This document shows positions 697 through 20,433 of a stretch of DNA of 21,205 nucleotides, piece by piece (within the stretch, counting starts at the first letter, position 1; each line of letters opens with the position of its first letter). The DNA comes from a virus. The stretch spans positions 1-21,205 of IMG/VR virus record IMGVR_UViG_3300013006_000149; one strand, 5' to 3'. The position numbers and the translations under genes were made by a program. The notes beneath the pieces were generated by a model. That model saw nothing but the letters and a program-made list of their open reading frames with translations, was not told the origin of the DNA and did not search any database.

Positions 697-1617
697 TTAC
701 TGTCTAACGGTTTTAGTAAAGTACTTCCACTTATCCCACATAACGTTATTCTGCTTTAATAGCTCTTGGCTATTAGCTCTAATAGGATTAATATCAATAC
801 CACCACGCCTAACATACAGACATGATACCATTAGCTCTTCTGGCTTAACTAAATCATATAAGCGCTTGTAAATGGTTTCACAAATTTCTTCATGAAAATG
901 ACATTCATCTCTAAATGAGACAATGTACTGTAATAATGAGGTTTGGTTAAGCTGATAGGGTCCTTTATAATGAATATAAACATCCCCCCAGTCAGGCTGA
1001 GATGTGACCCTGCAATTACTCTTCAATAGGGCTGAATGAAAGCGCTGTACATTATTCGAATCACCTTCTGTCCAGCCGAGTAAGGAAGGATCTTCCTTAT
1101 AACCGCGAGACTTAATTGACGTAACGTCTATATTATTTTCTAAAGTAGGATAGTTAGCGGTAGAGAATAAAGGCGGATAATACATCGCATCATCAATAGC
1201 CTTTGTAAGCCTAACACAGACTCTAACTTCTGTTTCTAATAGTTTAGATAAATCATTTTCCATTACTGCCTCAAGCTGTTGCAATACACTGATAATATTA
1301 CCCTGGTACGTCTCCATATTAAACGAATTCATATAGAGCTTAATAGACTTTGACTCAACGATATATTTGTTAGTAGCAGGGTATACAACCTTAGCAATGG
1401 CAGCAATTGGCATCCCTTCATTAGTCAAGCACGATACTTCATACGCATTCCACACATCATACCCGCAAAACGGCGGCGCATCATCACTAATACCTAAATG
1501 TTTTCTATTGTTCTGTCTTGGCTCGCGAACCAAAAGAGAGGGGTCATAGGTACATTTGTACCCTGTTATTCTACCAAGATGCTTTGATATATTACTGTTA
1601 TCTAATTCCGTATTCAT
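697..1617 (-). CDS. queF: NADPH-dependent 7-cyano-7-deazaguanine (preQ0) reductase QueF, long type
   Basis: QueF reduces the nitrile of preQ0 to the aminomethyl group of preQ1 using NADPH. At 306 residues it matches the long two-module (E. coli-type) family, usually about 280 residues. Visible signatures are YDPSLL near residue 24, WNAYEVS (56-62), ESKSIKLYMNSFN (88-100), catalytic Cys202 in LLKSNCRVTSQPDWG with Asp209, FHEE (241-244), and the C-terminal RRGGIDINP. It is the last gene of a six-gene leftward operon and overlaps the upstream kinase by 20 nt. In the same operon as dpdA its likely product is preQ1 for insertion into phage DNA rather than tRNA queuosine. No preQ0-synthesis genes (folE, queD, queE, queC) are in the window, so preQ0 must come from the host or from elsewhere in the phage genome. 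Confidence 0.93.
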   Translation of the reverse strand: MNTELDNSNISKHLGRITGYKCTYDPSLLVREPRQNNRKHLGISDDAPPFCGYDVWNAYEVSCLTNEGMPIAAIAKVVYPATNKYIVESKSIKLYMNSFNMETYQGNIISVLQQLEAVMENDLSKLLETEVRVCVRLTKAIDDAMYYPPLFSTANYPTLENNIDVTSIKSRGYKEDPSLLGWTEGDSNNVQRFHSALLKSNCRVTSQPDWGDVYIHYKGPYQLNQTSLLQYIVSFRDECHFHEEICETIYKRLYDLVKPEELMVSCLYVRRGGIDINPIRANSQELLKQNNVMWDKWKYFTKTVRQ

Positions 1618-2176
1618 TAAGTTTTATTTTAATTGCTTCCATTCGTTCTTCAACTGTTCCTTTTAAAATAGTTACCTTACCTTTTAATCTTTCATCGGAT
1701 AACCAAAAGTTCTCATACTTATCAATTATTGCATCTCTAAATTCTTTATTAATACTTCTCTCTCCATCATCCACCAGCGGAACATCATGGGGGCTTGGAT
1801 AAAAGATATGATCATACCTATGAATATGATTCACATAGTACATTAATCCCAGACTATTAGATACAGGAAAATCATTTAGCCTGTCTCGAGCAAAATAACT
1901 TGTAAACACCATTCCATCCATTATACAACGATCATGTAATATACCTTGAAAATTAAAACCTTTATAATCATAAAACAAATTTTCAAACTCTTTATTAAGA
2001 ATTAAAGTCTGAGTTACATCGTTTGCACCCGTCTCATTAATGTCAACACCATACTCGCGTTTAATTAGCCTCGTAACCTCATCAATATAACACAATTTCG
2101 AACCATAATACTCTTTACACTTCTTTAATAGTGTAGTCTTACCTGAACACTGCGGACCTGTAAAAGTAAATATCAT
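1598..2176 (-). CDS. P-loop nucleotide kinase-like ATPase (NadR/AAA_28-like)
   Basis: A 192-residue protein with an N-terminal Walker A motif GPQCSGKTT (residues 7-15), a following IDE-type acidic segment, a DR motif (LHDRCIMDG) in the middle and a C-terminal helical lid-like part. This arrangement fits small P-loop kinases such as the NadR kinase domain or deoxynucleoside monophosphate kinases. The start at 2176 is preferred over the upstream ATG at 2185 because it gives an ATGA overlap with the stop of the preceding gene. Inside a 7-deazaguanine DNA-modification operon a nucleoside or nucleotide kinase role is plausible, but the substrate cannot be read from the sequence. Confidence 0.8.
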   Translation of the reverse strand: MIFTFTGPQCSGKTTLLKKCKEYYGSKLCYIDEVTRLIKREYGVDINETGANDVTQTLILNKEFENLFYDYKGFNFQGILHDRCIMDGMVFTSYFARDRLNDFPVSNSLGLMYYVNHIHRYDHIFYPSPHDVPLVDDGERSINKEFRDAIIDKYENFWLSDERLKGKVTILKGTVEERMEAIKIKLNEYGIR

Positions 2177-2520
2177 TTGCCCCACTTACCATTATATACT
2201 ATTTCCGCAATAATGCCATACACTGCAGAATCTCTAAACGCATCCATAACTGGCTCATTTGCAGAGCTCATTGCCTTCTTCTTTAAAACTAAATTAATTA
2301 AGCGCTGAATTTTATCATTAAGACGAACCACAATAGCGGATATTGCAGCAAATTTATCTTCTTGTTTTACTAAATCTGAGCCAAGAGAAATATTGCCTGG
2401 GCCGTAGTCAAACTGCTTTTTACAGAATGTCTCATATAATTCAGCTTGTATTTTCTGAAACTCTTTACACGTCTCCGGAAAATTTTTTTCTACGTATTTA
2501 ATGGCATCCTCTTTATTCAT
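2173..2520 (-). CDS. Nmad1 (DUF1599)/MazG-like nucleotide-modification-associated protein
   Basis: This is a 115-residue all-helical protein. It shows a DYGPGNIS element (residues 39-46), a charged helix with NDKIQRLINL, and NEPVMDAFRDSAVYGIIAEIV towards the end. That pattern (DYG, then R-x-x-DK-x-x-RL-x-NL, then NE-x-x-x-D-x-x-x-D-x-x-x-Y) fits the small phage family called nucleotide modification associated domain 1, which resembles MazG-like NTP pyrophosphatases. The ATG follows GGTGAG by a few bases, a recognisable ribosome binding site, and overlaps the guaC stop by 4 nt. A role in cleaning or channelling (deoxy)nucleotides for DNA modification is inferred from family and context. Confidence 0.7.
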   Translation of the reverse strand: MNKEDAIKYVEKNFPETCKEFQKIQAELYETFCKKQFDYGPGNISLGSDLVKQEDKFAAISAIVVRLNDKIQRLINLVLKKKAMSSANEPVMDAFRDSAVYGIIAEIVYNGKWGK

Positions 2521-3476
2521 AATCTCACCCCGTAATTCACTTTATTTAAATTTAACGAACCGAGATTGCAACCACCTGCATAACTAATTGCACTCTGTAA
2601 ATCCTGCTTTATTTCTTCAAGTTTTTCTAGATACGTAAAGGTATCAGTATCCATAAGCTTCATTGTACCTTCAATATTCTTTTTTTCAATTTTATTATGT
2701 ACACTGGCTGATCCAAAGTATTGCTTAAACCGTCTTCCACTTGCATCTTTAACAAGAGGTGCAGGACTATCAGAACATGCAGCAAATATGGACCCACACA
2801 TCACCATATTAGCACCTGCAACCAATGCCTTAGCAATATCACCATTACTACGCACACCGCCATCCGCAATAATAGAAATATTTTTATCTTTAGCACACTC
2901 CATAATACAGCTAAACATCGGATAAGTGAATCCTGTCTTGTCTTTTGTTGTACATGCATATCCGCCACCAATACCAATCTTTACAGCATCAGCTCCTGCA
3001 TCATGTAAATACTCTACACCTTGAAATGAGGCTACATTACCAGCGATAATTTTAGCGGACGGTAGTACTTGTTTAATATGCCTAATCTGATCTGCTACTT
3101 TTAAATGATGACCATGCGCAACATCTATTGTAATAAAATCGACCTTCATCATGCTTTGCCCAATAGCTGTTAATATATCTTTATCTTTCCGCTGTATACC
3201 GATGCTTATAGATATAATATTAAATTTACGTGAATTTGCATACCGAACAAAGCTTTGTATATCATTATCAAACCGGTGCATAATATAGAAATAACCGTGT
3301 TTATCCAAAAGCTCGCATGTGCTCTCATCAACACAGCATTTCATATTAGCAGGAAGGACTGGTAGTTTGAAATCATATCCACAGAATAATACGTTTGTAT
3401 CAATCTCTGCTCTCGACTTTATTGTATTATAATTAGGCTTGAGAAATATATTCTCGTAATGTAGCGATATATCCAT
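2517..3476 (-). CDS. guaC: GMP reductase (IMPDH/GMPR superfamily, GuaC type 2)
   Basis: GuaC converts GMP to IMP and ammonia using NADPH. The 319-residue TIM-barrel protein follows the Bacillus-type GuaC along its length: LPVLPANMKCCVDE near residues 39-51, YFYIMHRF (62-69), ITIDVAHGHH (115-124), AGNVAS, the catalytic loop KIGIGGGYACTTK with Cys175, IIADGGVRSNGDIAKAL, and the C-terminal DLQSAISYAGG. These last features and the lack of CBS domains favour GMP reductase over IMP dehydrogenase. It sits 1 nt after the formyltransferase and overlaps the next gene by 4 nt. In this operon it may rebalance purine pools or recycle guanine released during base exchange. A retargeted activity on a deazapurine nucleotide is possible but unproven. 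Confidence 0.9.
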   Translation of the reverse strand: MDISLHYENIFLKPNYNTIKSRAEIDTNVLFCGYDFKLPVLPANMKCCVDESTCELLDKHGYFYIMHRFDNDIQSFVRYANSRKFNIISISIGIQRKDKDILTAIGQSMMKVDFITIDVAHGHHLKVADQIRHIKQVLPSAKIIAGNVASFQGVEYLHDAGADAVKIGIGGGYACTTKDKTGFTYPMFSCIMECAKDKNISIIADGGVRSNGDIAKALVAGANMVMCGSIFAACSDSPAPLVKDASGRRFKQYFGSASVHNKIEKKNIEGTMKLMDTDTFTYLEKLEEIKQDLQSAISYAGGCNLGSLNLNKVNYGVRL

Positions 3477-3477
3477 T

Positions 3478-4050
3478 TTATCGTTCTAAAATCTTATATG
3501 CTGTAAAAAAGCTTTTCCAGAGGTCCAGAGCAGTATCACGTAGTGCACCATATACACCATCCAGAGTCATGCCTTCAATGCTTACTCCCTGACTCATTAA
3601 TATCTCTCCCTCATCTACACCGGGTGTAACTTTATGTATAACACAGCCTGCAAGTTTATAGCCTTCTGTAAAAGCTCTCTCTTGAGGGTTATAACCTTTA
3701 AGCGAAGGAAATTTATCTATAAGCCCGGGATGTAAGTTATATATTTCATATTGCTCGCAAATTTCTTTTGGAAGAATTCTTAGATATCCGTGTAATGTAA
3801 TTATAGGGTCTTTATACTTAGATAAAACATTTTTATAATCGATTAATTCAGGTTTAGGTGGGATATGACACCAGCAATGCGTCATATTAAGCTTTGTTGC
3901 CCTAAATGTTGTCAGCTCAATTAGCTTTTTATTCACCCCATCTGTATTATGCTTATTAAGGATTACACAATCAGGATATACTCCTAATGCATTACTAAGA
4001 TCATAAATCTCAGTACCTGTTTGCGAAAAAAATGCTACCCAAGGTCTCAT
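3478..4050 (-). CDS. GART/PurN-fold formyltransferase, candidate preQ1 formyltransferase
   Basis: A 190-residue formyltransferase-fold protein. The family's catalytic triad is visible as Asn105 and His107 in YNLHPGL and Asp146 in PGVDEGEIL. The supporting elements LHGYLRILP (residues 86-94) and FPSLKGYNPQERA (114-126) are also present. PurN transfers a formyl group from 10-formyl-tetrahydrofolate to GAR, and related enzymes formylate other amines. Here the gene starts inside the dpdA stop (ATGA overlap) and is followed 1 nt later by guaC, so it belongs to the DNA-modification operon. A formylated preQ1 derivative has been reported in some phage DNAs, which makes the aminomethyl group of preQ1, free or in DNA, the most attractive substrate. 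That substrate is inferred. Purine biosynthesis is the alternative. Confidence 0.85.
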   Translation of the reverse strand: MRPWVAFFSQTGTEIYDLSNALGVYPDCVILNKHNTDGVNKKLIELTTFRATKLNMTHCWCHIPPKPELIDYKNVLSKYKDPIITLHGYLRILPKEICEQYEIYNLHPGLIDKFPSLKGYNPQERAFTEGYKLAGCVIHKVTPGVDEGEILMSQGVSIEGMTLDGVYGALRDTALDLWKSFFTAYKILER

Positions 4051-4853
4051 CTACGAATAATTTTCTTAAACATTGTAGTATTATACTTTACTAGTTCAAG
4101 CTGATCATCTGTAAAATTATGCGTAATAAGATCAGCTAATTTTGTTGCTGGCTTATTATCTAGCCCATAATCAGCATCGTACTTCAATCCATGTATAGCA
4201 GCAACAACGGGATTACTGGTATCGCAGCTAACAATATTGTAAATATTTCTATCAACATAAAATCTAAATTCCTTAGCTAAAGAGCAACCAAGCAGGTGAT
4301 GGGGTTTATTCCAATTCCATATTCCATTATTTATCAAATCTTCAATAAAGCGCTGACGACCAGTACACCATTTTTCAAGATGTGACTTCCCCTCACCAGT
4401 AATCTGATAATAACTAAAATCAAAACTTATTGCAATCATATCTGCGTTATCAGACATAAACTTATAACACTCTTTTAGTTCATACCAAGTTTTACCTTGT
4501 ACTGCGCCTATAGCTTTTGTATGAAAGTGTTCCTTGATATCTTGTGTATATAAAAGAAATTCCTTATAACTCTGCACAGTACCTTGCATATCTTCTAAGA
4601 CATCCGGAACAATAAACATATTAGGCTTAATTTCTTTAGCTTTTGTCCAAAATTCTCGACTATCAAAAGCTTTACCTAATTCAAAAATAGAGTTATCAAG
4701 CAGCACTTCTCTATCATAGGTAGACCTAGCAGATTTAAAAAAATCGTTATATAGGGGGTATTGATCTAATAAATGTACTAGACAGTAATCAAAATCATTA
4801 TATTCACGAGAAAAATCAAGTAAGGATATAGGCGACTCGTGTGATACTTTCAT
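4047..4853 (-). CDS. dpdA: DpdA-like DNA guanine transglycosylase (7-deazaguanine insertion)
   Basis: DpdA proteins are relatives of tRNA-guanine transglycosylase that exchange guanine in DNA for a 7-deazaguanine base. The 268-residue protein shows LLDNSIFELG (residues 51-60, candidate catalytic Asp53), PDVLEDMQGT (83-92), GAVQGKTWYEL, ISFDFSYY, KPHHLLGCSLAKEFRFY and SCDTSNPVVAAIHG (candidate nucleophile Asp211). This matches the short phage DpdA type. I chose ATG 4853 because AAGGA lies 7 nt upstream; ATG 4859 is possible. The longer frame to 4991 would overlap the divergent spike gene and is unlikely. It is the first gene of the operon dpdA, formyltransferase, guaC, Nmad1, kinase, queF, which strongly supports a role in DNA modification against host restriction. 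Confidence 0.88.
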   Translation of the reverse strand: MKVSHESPISLLDFSREYNDFDYCLVHLLDQYPLYNDFFKSARSTYDREVLLDNSIFELGKAFDSREFWTKAKEIKPNMFIVPDVLEDMQGTVQSYKEFLLYTQDIKEHFHTKAIGAVQGKTWYELKECYKFMSDNADMIAISFDFSYYQITGEGKSHLEKWCTGRQRFIEDLINNGIWNWNKPHHLLGCSLAKEFRFYVDRNIYNIVSCDTSNPVVAAIHGLKYDADYGLDNKPATKLADLITHNFTDDQLELVKYNTTMFKKIIRR

Positions 4854-15628: not shown

Positions 15629-16087
15629 TTAATCTAGTTTAGAGGTTTCCCAAGGAAAGTCAAGCCATATTTCGTCGGCAAATTTCTTTACATAAAAATT
15701 CGGAACAAATTTAGTATTTTTCTTCATATAAAGAGTAGCAAATTTAAAGTTTGTAAATTGACAAGATTCAAAATAATCTTTTGCCGCACTTAGTGTTGCG
15801 CCTTTGTCGGATAGATCGTCAACAACTATAACGCGCTTATCTCTAAATTCAGAATTAAACTTAACCCCTGGGATTTGATTAATAATTATTTCGCCGGCCC
15901 TTTCATCCTTATATGAAGACATGGAAAAATTAACTATGGGTATATTATGCAAATATGCAATAAATGTACCGGGTATAAGACCCCCGCGACCAATAGCTAC
16001 TATAGCATCACATGATCCAATATCTCTTGCAAGTTCCTTACAGTCTCCAAGAAGCGTACCCCAACTTATATCATAGCGTTGCGACAT
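15629..16087 (-). CDS. Purine phosphoribosyltransferase, Gpt-like
   Basis: A 152-residue type I phosphoribosyltransferase. The PRPP-binding signature VIVVDDLSDKGATL spans residues 86-99 (Asp90-Asp91), and an N-terminal AIVAIGRGGLIPG loop (29-40) contacts pyrophosphate. Size, the hydrophobic start and the short C-terminal WLDFPWE segment resemble xanthine-guanine phosphoribosyltransferase (Gpt), where a W-x-x-F/Y-PWE motif is common. It would convert guanine, xanthine or hypoxanthine plus PRPP into the nucleotide. With dpdA and guaC in the same window it could salvage guanine set free from DNA, though this link is inferred. A perfect ACGTTA/TAACGT inverted repeat (16088-16102) lies directly upstream of the ATG, and a terminator follows. 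Confidence 0.85.
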   Translation of the reverse strand: MSQRYDISWGTLLGDCKELARDIGSCDAIVAIGRGGLIPGTFIAYLHNIPIVNFSMSSYKDERAGEIIINQIPGVKFNSEFRDKRVIVVDDLSDKGATLSAAKDYFESCQFTNFKFATLYMKKNTKFVPNFYVKKFADEIWLDFPWETSKLD

Positions 16088-17990: not shown

Positions 17991-18998
17991 ATGGCACAAG
18001 TACCCAATAGAAATGATCAACTTAGACGTCAAGTCAACGCAGCTCGAAGTATTTTCAATGTGAACCACGTATTGCGTAAAAGCAGTGGCAATGCAGTATT
18101 GGCAAATGTACCAGTAACACCTTCCCCGCAGCCCGCCTACACTGCCACAGTGAGAGCAACATATGCCAATGCAGTATTAGCGGAAGACTTTGGTGATAGA
18201 TGCGCCACCTTCATACAGTCTTTGTGTGGATATGCACCGAGTAATGTGGTGTCTGCTGCATGCATTTGTTCAGATGATAAAAATGCTCCCATCTTTCCTA
18301 ATAACACTTTTGGTCAATACCCTGAATCTTTGCAACAATTTTCTGGACCTTTCTTTGCCGGGGGCATTGGTGGTTATCCTTTCACAGGTATAGTAGGTAC
18401 CTTTGCATGGTCCTCCCACATCACTGACACTGGTGCCTTGTTCTACTACATTCAACCACACATTGGTATTACAGCTGCCGGGCAAGTGGGGTTCATGATC
18501 AGGCAAGGTCAGGCAACTGTATCAGCCACATGTGGTGCACTCAATGTGGCACAACAGTATGTGGCTACCGGTGGTGCAGAACCTACCTTCCCAGGTGCAT
18601 TTCCCTTTGGTGAATATGATTATCAGCAGTATGTACTAACAGAAAACCTGTACAGTGCAAATAGTGGTGCAGTAAGAACCAGTCTGGTGAACAACTACAA
18701 CACATACCAAGACAGTGCAGCTAATCCTAATGCCCTGGGCTATGGTGTGAGAATGAAGATTGCCACAGATGCCACCAGAGATGCTGCAGCTGCTGCATTC
18801 AAGGCCAACATATTACCTGCAGCTTATAACGCCTTGTTTGGTGCAAATAAATCTAGAGATGTGTTTGTGAGCGTGGGTACTTTCATTAATGTGGATGATG
18901 GTTTCAAAGCTTACATTGACTCTACTAGCTTTGAGAGATACAATCCGGTTACAGAAGACTACACCAATTACACTACAGCATTCAACAACGGCTTGTAA
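17991..18998 (+). CDS. LCIB-type beta-carbonic-anhydrase-like protein
   Basis: A 335-residue protein. After a short N-terminal helix and Pro-rich linker (residues 1-50), a core resembles the limiting-CO2-inducible B/C (LCIB) carbonic anhydrase family: CSDDKN (93-98), GGIGGYPFTGIVG (124-136), SSHITDTG (141-148), PHIGIT (156-161), RQGQ (171-174) and TCGAL (180-184). In that family two Cys and one His bind zinc; Cys93, His143 and Cys181 are the natural candidates. A phage copy might act on CO2/bicarbonate in the infected cell, or be a virion protein reusing the fold. A perfect late promoter precedes it and tail-tip genes follow on the same strand, which favours a late or virion role. The identification is by motif memory only. 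Confidence 0.68.
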   Translation: MAQVPNRNDQLRRQVNAARSIFNVNHVLRKSSGNAVLANVPVTPSPQPAYTATVRATYANAVLAEDFGDRCATFIQSLCGYAPSNVVSAACICSDDKNAPIFPNNTFGQYPESLQQFSGPFFAGGIGGYPFTGIVGTFAWSSHITDTGALFYYIQPHIGITAAGQVGFMIRQGQATVSATCGALNVAQQYVATGGAEPTFPGAFPFGEYDYQQYVLTENLYSANSGAVRTSLVNNYNTYQDSAANPNALGYGVRMKIATDATRDAAAAAFKANILPAAYNALFGANKSRDVFVSVGTFINVDDGFKAYIDSTSFERYNPVTEDYTNYTTAFNNGL

Positions 18999-19013: not shown

Positions 19014-19571
19014 ATGGCCGACGTAACCATTGGTAACCTACCTCCGGGCATTGCTTTGGGTCAATGTTTTGTACCTTTATCCGACACTGTAGCTACAGTT
19101 AAAGTGCGTGTGTCTGCCTTGCAAGTAGATTATAGTAACATCACTGGTAAGCCAACAAATACCATTCCTGCAGGGTTCATAGGACTGTGGTCAGGTGCAG
19201 CCAATGCCATACCTGCAGGATGGGCGTTATGTAATGGTGCCAATGGTACACCCAATCTAGTTGATAGATTTGTATTAGGTGCAGGCACTAGCACGCCAGC
19301 TGTGGGTGCAACAGGTGGAAGCAAAGACGCCATAGTAGTAAGTCACACACATACTGCATCTGATTCAGGGCATAGCCATTCTATTCCAGGTGCAAATAGT
19401 GGTCGAAACGGGTCCGCGAGTGGTGTTTTAGCCGTTACCGGTGGACAAGCTGGCACCGGTGCGACAACTAATGCAAGTAGCGCTAACATTACTGTAGCTG
19501 CAGCTGGTCAATCGGGTACCAATGCTAATCTGCCCCCTTATTATGCTTTGTGTTACATCATGAAGACTTAA
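19014..19571 (+). CDS. Phage tail-collar domain protein (receptor-binding candidate)
   Basis: A 185-residue protein. Residues 1-48 are nearly identical to the start of the next fibre gene and likely attach it to the virion. Then comes the tail-collar signature: GFIGLWSGAANAIPAGWALC (about 55-74), NGTPNLVDRFVLGAG, SHTHTASDSGHSHSIP with repeated HxH pairs, and the ending LPPYYALCYIMK. HxH repeats in phage fibre tips can bind iron. It follows the LCIB-like gene by 15 nt without its own late promoter and is presumably co-transcribed with it. It would form a short fibre or collar contacting the host surface. Confidence 0.85.
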   Translation: MADVTIGNLPPGIALGQCFVPLSDTVATVKVRVSALQVDYSNITGKPTNTIPAGFIGLWSGAANAIPAGWALCNGANGTPNLVDRFVLGAGTSTPAVGATGGSKDAIVVSHTHTASDSGHSHSIPGANSGRNGSASGVLAVTGGQAGTGATTNASSANITVAAAGQSGTNANLPPYYALCYIMKT

Positions 19572-19653: not shown

Positions 19654-20433
19654 ATGGCTGATGTAACCATTGGTAACTTGCCTCCAGGTATTGCTCTAGG
19701 TCAATGTTTTGTGCCTTTATCCGACACTGTAGCTACAGTTAAAGCACGTGTGTCAGCCTTACAAGTAGATTATAGCAATATAACCAGTAAGCCAACAATA
19801 CCAGCAGCTCAAGTTAATTCAGATTGGAATGCAAGCTCTGGGGTTGCTCAAATATTGAATAAGCCAACAATACCCACAATTGTAGGGTTTTCTGCAATTG
19901 TCTCGCTTGCCACTGTGGGTGCTGGAACGTGGGCCAAGCCTGCAGGCATAACTTGCATCAAGGTGACTGTTGTGGGAGCAGGTGGTGGTGGTGGCGGGCC
20001 TAATTTTCAAGGCACTACCGCCTTGGCAGGTGGAGCATCAGTGTTTGATACTGCTGGTATTAATGTAACAGGAAATGGTGGAGGTGCAGCTTCTGGAATA
20101 GGAACAAGAGGGGTGGGTGGAACTGGTGCTAATGGTGGTGTAAATATAACAGGTGCAGCTGGCTTTCCTGGAGGCAACGGCGGCAGTGGAGGAAGCTGGG
20201 GTGGAGGTGGACCAGGGCTTGGTCAATATGGGGTGGGTGGCTACGGCTTAGTAAATGGCAATACAACGTATGCTGGTGGAGGTGCAGGCGGTATAGCAAT
20301 AAAATACATGACTATTACATCTGCAGCAACAAACTATTTATATACTATTGGGGCTGGTGGGAGAGGTTCATCTGGTGGATCTGCAGGTAATGCGGCAGCT
20401 GGTAATTCAGGTATTATTATAATAGAATATTGA
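19654..20433 (+). CDS. Glycine-rich tail-fibre adhesin sharing its N-terminus with the collar protein
   Basis: A 259-residue protein. Residues 1-48 differ at only two positions from the collar protein encoded at 19014. A fibre linker repeat follows (NSDWNASSGVAQILNKPTIP, about 55-74). Next, WAKPAGITCIKVTVVGAGGGGG opens a glycine-rich domain with many GG/GGG runs, ending in SGIIIIEY. This is the common architecture of T4-like gp38-type and other phage adhesins whose Gly-rich loops determine host range. It probably uses the same attachment site on the virion as its neighbour. It is preceded by its own late promoter-like box. Confidence 0.83.
   Translation: MADVTIGNLPPGIALGQCFVPLSDTVATVKARVSALQVDYSNITSKPTIPAAQVNSDWNASSGVAQILNKPTIPTIVGFSAIVSLATVGAGTWAKPAGITCIKVTVVGAGGGGGGPNFQGTTALAGGASVFDTAGINVTGNGGGAASGIGTRGVGGTGANGGVNITGAAGFPGGNGGSGGSWGGGGPGLGQYGVGGYGLVNGNTTYAGGGAGGIAIKYMTITSAATNYLYTIGAGGRGSSGGSAGNAAAGNSGIIIIEY

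Follow-up and report, generated by a model that had tools for sequence, protein, structure and literature searches.

A six-gene phage operon predicted to encode the last steps of guanine replacement in DNA

How some phages replace all guanine in their DNA with 7-deazaguanines is an unsettled question. Members of the Firehammervirus group, reported to carry dADG (PMC6884629), are also reported to have their dG fully replaced (PMC10273834); in other DpdA phages, 0.02–32 % of the Gs are modified (Hutinet 2019; PMC6884629). Here, we analyzed a compact operon around a small DpdA gene in a viral DNA of 21,205 bases, which is the whole record IMGVR_UViG_3300013006_000149 and probably a fragment (hereafter the window). 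With a probability of roughly 0.65, this operon represents the last steps of guanine replacement by exchange at the DNA level, with recycling of the released guanine. The pattern of kinase, phosphoribosyltransferase (PRT) and GMP reductase (GuaC) genes that accompany DpdA makes the question enzymatically testable.

Several described systems resemble the locus in part. Flavobacterium phage vB_FspM_immuto (NC_055915) carries dpdA, a formyltransferase gene, an AAA_28 kinase gene and queF in the same order as the window (dpdA-hypothetical-formyltransferase-kinase-queF), with folE, queD, queE and a PRT gene nearby. Unlike the window, its cluster contains neither guaC nor Nmad1, and dpdA is instead preceded by a gene for a PRA-PH/MazG-type hydrolase. 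Firehammervirus CP220 has a small DpdA with 45 % identity to that of the window and an AAA_28 kinase encoded immediately after it, but no queF or formyltransferase gene beside dpdA. Cellulophaga phage phiST likewise combines an LDN-type DpdA with a PRT, a MazG protein and a P-loop kinase encoded directly upstream; in contrast to the window, this kinase is of the AAA_18 family, and the stretch read contained no queF or formyltransferase gene. The DpdA1 systems (Enterobacteria phage 9g and relatives) also have a TGT-family DpdA, with preQ0 genes nearby, whereas their protein is of the LDSG type, mostly ~300–325 aa long, often encoded next to a clamp or polymerase gene and not accompanied by a kinase. 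Modification in these systems is partial (PMC6884629).

The original prediction had called the gene combination of the window unusual, which does not hold for the formyltransferase, the kinase and QueF, as all three already accompany dpdA in immuto. The core, consisting of DpdA, preQ1 supply via QueF and formylation, is of a known kind. The novel findings are an operon that includes GuaC and Nmad1 and is widespread among uncultivated phages, the constant link of this DpdA type to a kinase together with its DpdA1 control, and the enrichment of PRT. A genuinely distinct route, with synthesis at the nucleotide level, is possible.

Operon organization and the small DpdA

Checking the open reading frames (ORFs) of the window confirmed the coordinates and junctions of a compact leftward six-gene operon, as had been predicted. 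All six ORFs lie on the minus strand, and from queF to dpdA the measured junctions are -20, -13, -4, +1 and -4 nt.

4047–4853, minus strand: small DpdA, predicted DNA guanine transglycosylase with a TGT fold, 268 aa, LDNS type
3478–4050, minus strand: formyltransferase, PurN-like 10-formyl-tetrahydrofolate type, likely a (d)preQ1 formyltransferase (DpdN-like)
2517–3476, minus strand: GuaC, GMP reductase
2173–2520, minus strand: Nmad1 (DUF1599)-like protein, all-helical, possibly an NTP pyrophosphohydrolase
1598–2176 (listed ORF to 2185), minus strand: P-loop kinase, AAA_28, thymidylate-kinase/NadR-like
697–1617, minus strand: QueF, preQ0 nitrile reductase, long bacterial form
15629–16087, minus strand, outside the operon: PRT, candidate guanine salvage enzyme (PF00156, 5e-15)

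For the kinase, ATG 2176 (M4 of the listed ORF) is a more probable start than GTG 2185. Relatives use this start, and the overlap with the Nmad1-like gene would then be 4 nt (ATGA) and not 13. The dpdA ORF is readable from 4991, yet the start at 4853 is kept among relatives and has AAGGA upstream.

A scan of IMG/VR yielded 80 related loci, 79 of them with enough sequence to test the neighbours. Neighbour family models were built from matches to the window's own proteins, and metagenomic contigs among the relatives may be incomplete. The order dpdA-ftN-(guaC)-nmad-kinase-queF, with ftN as the formyltransferase gene, recurs in ~60 of the 80 loci, so the operon is not a chance arrangement. A P-loop kinase is encoded near the small LDN-type DpdA in 79/79 testable loci of this family; all five partner families are present in 31 loci and only GuaC is missing in 28, while smaller sets are without Nmad1, the formyltransferase or QueF. 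Within the operon, GuaC and Nmad1 thus vary between loci, and the kinase is constant.

The assignment of the protein at 4047–4853 to the DpdA/TGT family stands. Pfam returned no match (and no TGT), and a PDB search with the DpdA profile gave no sequence match. Its AlphaFold (AF2) model reaches a pLDDT of 93; the top listed PDB matches to the model are all TGT (Foldseek), and comparison with archaeosine and queuine TGTs resulted in Z ~18 over 226–235 residues (VIA). Three aspartates, D53, D84 and D211, are invariant in 42 relatives, and D53 and D211 are kept in all 26 sequences of a wider DpdA set. Judged by motif and order, they would be the equivalents of TGT D102, D156 and D280. The modelled fold together with these residues places the protein in the TGT/DpdA superfamily. 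Its nearest named relatives, with which it clusters in the tree, are the immuto DpdA (44 %, annotated as DNA guanine transglycosylase) and the protein of Campylobacter phage CP220 (45 %, unannotated). A 2023 study is said to have defined DpdA3 as the subfamily of complete replacement.

The window DpdA consists of one short domain and misses the CxCxxC zinc motif of TGT, which is also absent from the DpdA1 controls. Charge was dismissed as an indicator that DNA binding has been lost, since the isoelectric points of the two DpdA types overlap. PF20314 (DUF6610) weakly matches 18 of the 42 relatives (best 2e-4), and DUF6610 may be TGT-like. At one locus (L069:2554-3006), a cupin gene takes the place of the formyltransferase gene directly after dpdA, and a putative cysteine dioxygenase gene follows dpdA directly in Achromobacter phage ART (DpdA1); these may be tailoring enzymes of a new kind.

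Proposed guanine exchange and recycling, and the DpdA-linked kinase

What was observed are the identities and order of the genes, their co-occurrence, the fold and the catalytic residues; from these, we infer the following reactions, extent of replacement and recycling. GTP would be converted to preQ0 by FolE, QueD, QueE and QueC, which the phage encodes outside the operon, and preQ0 to preQ1 by QueF. In the phage DNA, the small DpdA would exchange guanine for preQ1, probably at the majority of sites or at every one. The PurN-like formyltransferase would formylate the aminomethyl nitrogen, either ahead of insertion or afterwards. The predicted product is restriction-resistant DNA containing 7-(formylamino)methyl-7-deazaguanine. 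Under full exchange, each modified site would release one guanine, which the PRT, the DpdA-linked kinase and GuaC would most likely return to GMP, GDP and GTP, where it could enter a further round, or divert to IMP; Nmad1 would probably trim the guanine nucleotide pool.

Complete dG replacement in the window phage would follow by homology to Firehammervirus only. A 157-kb relative contains 58,181 G residues on both strands. If exchange is full, simple arithmetic for ~100 genome copies per cell gives ~10 mM guanine in a femtolitre, a concentration far above guanine solubility, and the recycling view suggests why a guanine-exchanging phage would have to remove this poorly soluble product. A PRT is present in 10/10 large relatives, in immuto and in phiST, and in 0/12 DpdA1 phages above the cut-off (12/16 small-DpdA phages vs 0/12; Fisher 7e-5).

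QueF, GuaC, the formyltransferase and the kinase were recovered in their predicted families by Pfam. For the window protein, which alone has no Pfam match, the Nmad1 call is weak; 13/17 family members match DUF1599/Nmad1 (best 1.8e-4). For GuaC, matches to PF00478 (IMPDH/GMPR; 5e-54) and to the GMP reductase structure PDB 1ypf (9e-75) are accompanied by a conserved CTT-type catalytic loop, a C-terminal EG motif and GMPR-type sequence; the score against the GMP reductase model NF003966 is 333 bits (cut-off 344). GuaC was found in 36 loci, 28 times inside the operon and 8 times upstream of a baseplate gene. The Nmad1-like protein matches phrog_1485 (3.5e-12). Its fold likeness is weak, with AF_0060 as best match (Z 7.3) and MazG-related chains ranked 32nd and 48th in VIA-align, and Foldseek gave no match below E 1. 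GuaC/IMPDH-type and Nmad1-like genes also lie within ~4 kb of each other, with no nearby dpdA, in Microcystis phage Mel-JY01 (L132) and the crAss-like cr108_1 (L133), which suggests a shared role in guanine nucleotide metabolism.

The window kinase matches AAA_28 (1.1e-12) and contains a Walker A motif; remote PDB matches to NadR, thymidylate kinases and a deoxynucleoside kinase are all weak. Among 50,697 annotated phage records, its sequence relatives are confined to Campylobacter phages and immuto, which also hold this DpdA. Several families take the position beside DpdA across lineages: AAA_28 kinases lie beside DpdA in the window, immuto, CP220 and CC_R7, AAA_18 kinases in phiST and Chryseobacterium phage MA9V-3, and another P-loop kinase family in Weizmannia phage Youna2 and Bacillus phage BSP7, while a weakly DNMK-like protein adjoins the DpdA homologue of Vibrio phage Bakedbeans. 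These make up three or four kinase families that appear to be unrelated. Campylobacter phage CC_R7, examined later as a blind case, has the order queC-dpdA-kinase-polymerase; its listing as a kinase without DpdA was dropped after a divergent DpdA was found with the kinase directly after it.

Two phages with LDN-type DpdA, Brevundimonas StAshley and Rhizobium RHph_I1_18, have no nearby kinase. Within 4 kb of the DpdA1 controls, many of which adjoin a sliding clamp or polymerase gene, a Walker-A protein of kinase size was found in 0/12 lineages. Counted by lineage, a kinase accompanies 7/9 LDN-type vs 0/12 DpdA1 (p = 3e-4), or 8/10 with CC_R7 included (p = 1.4e-4), p-values that serve as a guide only, as the lineages are related. 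CP220 and CC_R7 each have a second kinase of the same family beside a dUTPase, so the DpdA-linked copy probably has a different substrate.

Further kinases were noted around these loci. A second AAA_28-like kinase is encoded near queE (L117:4973-5710, corresponding to G004:104973-105710, and L126:464-1213), and the CP220 gene immediately upstream of dpdA (L002:8868-9899) encodes a fusion of an HD phosphohydrolase with a P-loop kinase domain. An NTP pyrophosphohydrolase as second constant partner of DpdA was rejected, as MazG/PRA-PH proteins occur in few phages, including the DpdA1 control Achromobacter ART. A match to the fecal contig MT836760 was spurious.

Some of these data weigh against DNA-level exchange with recycling. 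CP220, BSP7, Youna2 and MA9V-3 have the kinase yet no PRT, which means that the recycling set is not uniform. GuaC is not essential, given that more than half of the loci are without it. The host should supply GMP kinase, making a dedicated recycling kinase surprising, and the formyltransferase could simply raise purine supply. Moreover, a constant and independently recruited kinase counts for synthesis at the nucleotide level.

This last alternative, a pre-replicative route, is unlikely. Here, DpdA would exchange the base on dGMP derived from Nmad1 or another hydrolase, and the kinase would phosphorylate the 7-deaza-dGMP, which host guanylate kinase would be unable to use. GuaC would drain the competing GMP, and the polymerase would incorporate the modified nucleotide. 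It is rather doubtful that an LDN-type DpdA acting on free dGMP or dGTP provides, together with the kinase, a modified dNTP from which formyl-preQ1 DNA is built during replication. The hydroxymethyl-dCMP pathway of T4 relies on a dCTPase, a hydroxymethylase and a dNMP kinase. Its gene logic of hydrolase, modifier and kinase is similar, whereas base and enzymes differ; to see the nucleotide-level route as the base-exchange counterpart of the T4 hydroxymethylcytosine route is an analogy of the same doubtful standing.

The pre-replicative route would be consistent with the kinase in 79/79 loci, drawn from several families and found in 0/12 DpdA1 lineages, with the second, paralogous kinase linked to dUTPase in CP220 and CC_R7, and with a DpdA that is a single short domain lacking the zinc motif. 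The complete replacement reported for Firehammervirus (PMC10273834) also fits, and a modified-dGTP path had been proposed for Campylobacter phages while no DpdA was found there (PMC6884629). On the other hand, StAshley and RHph_I1_18 carry an LDN-type DpdA without a nearby kinase, neither charge nor the zinc motif separates the window type from DpdA1, the link to NTP pyrophosphohydrolases is not discriminating and the function of Nmad1 is only putative. Furthermore, a nucleotide-pool study of Campylobacter phages reportedly detected no dADG phosphate, and insertion is said to be post-replicative according to the 2023 study; both count against the pre-replicative route.

Predicted preQ1 supply and formylation

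QueF matches QueF_N (1e-33) and QueF (5e-23) in Pfam and scores 264 bits against TIGR03138, below the cut-off of 293. The motifs SNCRVTSQPDW (catalytic Cys and Asp), FHE and ESKS (NADPH motif) are present, and the catalytic Cys, Asp and His-Glu are retained in 71/71 aligned sequences. Two diverged QueF lineages share one operon slot. The second is ~33 % identical (SRCRHTKQKDTG, FHEFCAE) and occurs in L032, L035, L036, L039, L042, L044, L045, L047-L051 and L055, with the rest of the operon retained, which amounts to an in-place gene replacement.

The formyltransferase matches Formyl_trans_N (1e-15), and its best PDB relatives are GAR transformylases. N105, H107 and D146, corresponding to the Asn, His and Asp that PurN-type enzymes use in catalysis, are invariant. 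Among complete loci, none has the formyltransferase gene but no queF, and six have queF but no formyltransferase gene. Both genes lie within 6 kb in 65 loci, with queF further off in 1 more (Fisher 4e-6). This dependence is expected if the formyltransferase acts after QueF, on the QueF product. DpdN was reportedly named as the predicted dPreQ1 formyltransferase in the 2023 study. The preQ1-type base of the original prediction is therefore retained as far as the chemistry is concerned (TGT fold, nitrile-reductase residues of QueF), but the predicted end base is formyl-preQ1, i.e. 7-(formylamino)methyl-7-deazaguanine, rather than plain preQ1. The loci point to a group of uncultivated phages whose DNA is predicted to contain formyl-preQ1.

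It is improbable that the DNA carries plain dPreQ1 and that the genes for formyltransferase, GuaC, Nmad1 and kinase serve purine supply without acting on the modification. Points in favour of this reading are that the formyltransferase is PurN-like, that PurN, GuaC and dNMP kinases are commonplace as auxiliary genes of phages, and that GuaC and Nmad1 are found close together in phages without a nearby dpdA. Formylation is nevertheless favoured by the dependence of the formyltransferase on queF across loci, by its position directly after dpdA in the window and many relatives, and by its score far under the PurN equivalog cut-off (56 vs 150 bits). A role in host tRNA queuosine instead of DNA modification, compatible with QueF as a queuosine-pathway enzyme, was rejected as highly improbable because the zinc-binding part of TGT is missing from DpdA, whose relatives are either annotated as DNA transglycosylases or belong to phages with replaced dG.

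The preQ0 genes are indeed absent from the window, as already noted, because the record is probably a 21-kb fragment. They are not missing from the group: contigs of large relatives encode FolE (13/20), QueD (13/20) and QueC (12/20), and a QueE-like protein adjoins QueD. Hence the phages of this group themselves encode the pathway from GTP to preQ1. The cysteine spacing of some QueE-like proteins is odd (CNLTC, 11 residues, C), the usual radical-SAM motif being CxxxCxxC; this holds for L117:3161-3904 (G004:103161-103904) and also for L124, L126 and L127.

Other genes of the window

On the plus strand, positions 17991–18998 encode a protein of 335 aa, just ahead of tail-fibre-like genes, that matches the family of LCIB/C-type beta carbonic anhydrases (PF18599, E 1.6e-25, 90 bits vs a cut-off of 25). 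No relative was found in the 50,697 annotated phage records, and a 56 % identical copy is encoded in the related contig G004 (L119:10951-11961). A protein resembling carbonic anhydrase would be unusual for a phage. The following genes at 19014–19571 and 19654–20433, also on the plus strand, encode consecutive proteins with a near-identical N-terminus of ~45 residues (MADVTIGNLPPGIALGQCFVPLSD...) before they diverge, an arrangement that resembles swapped tail-fibre anchors.

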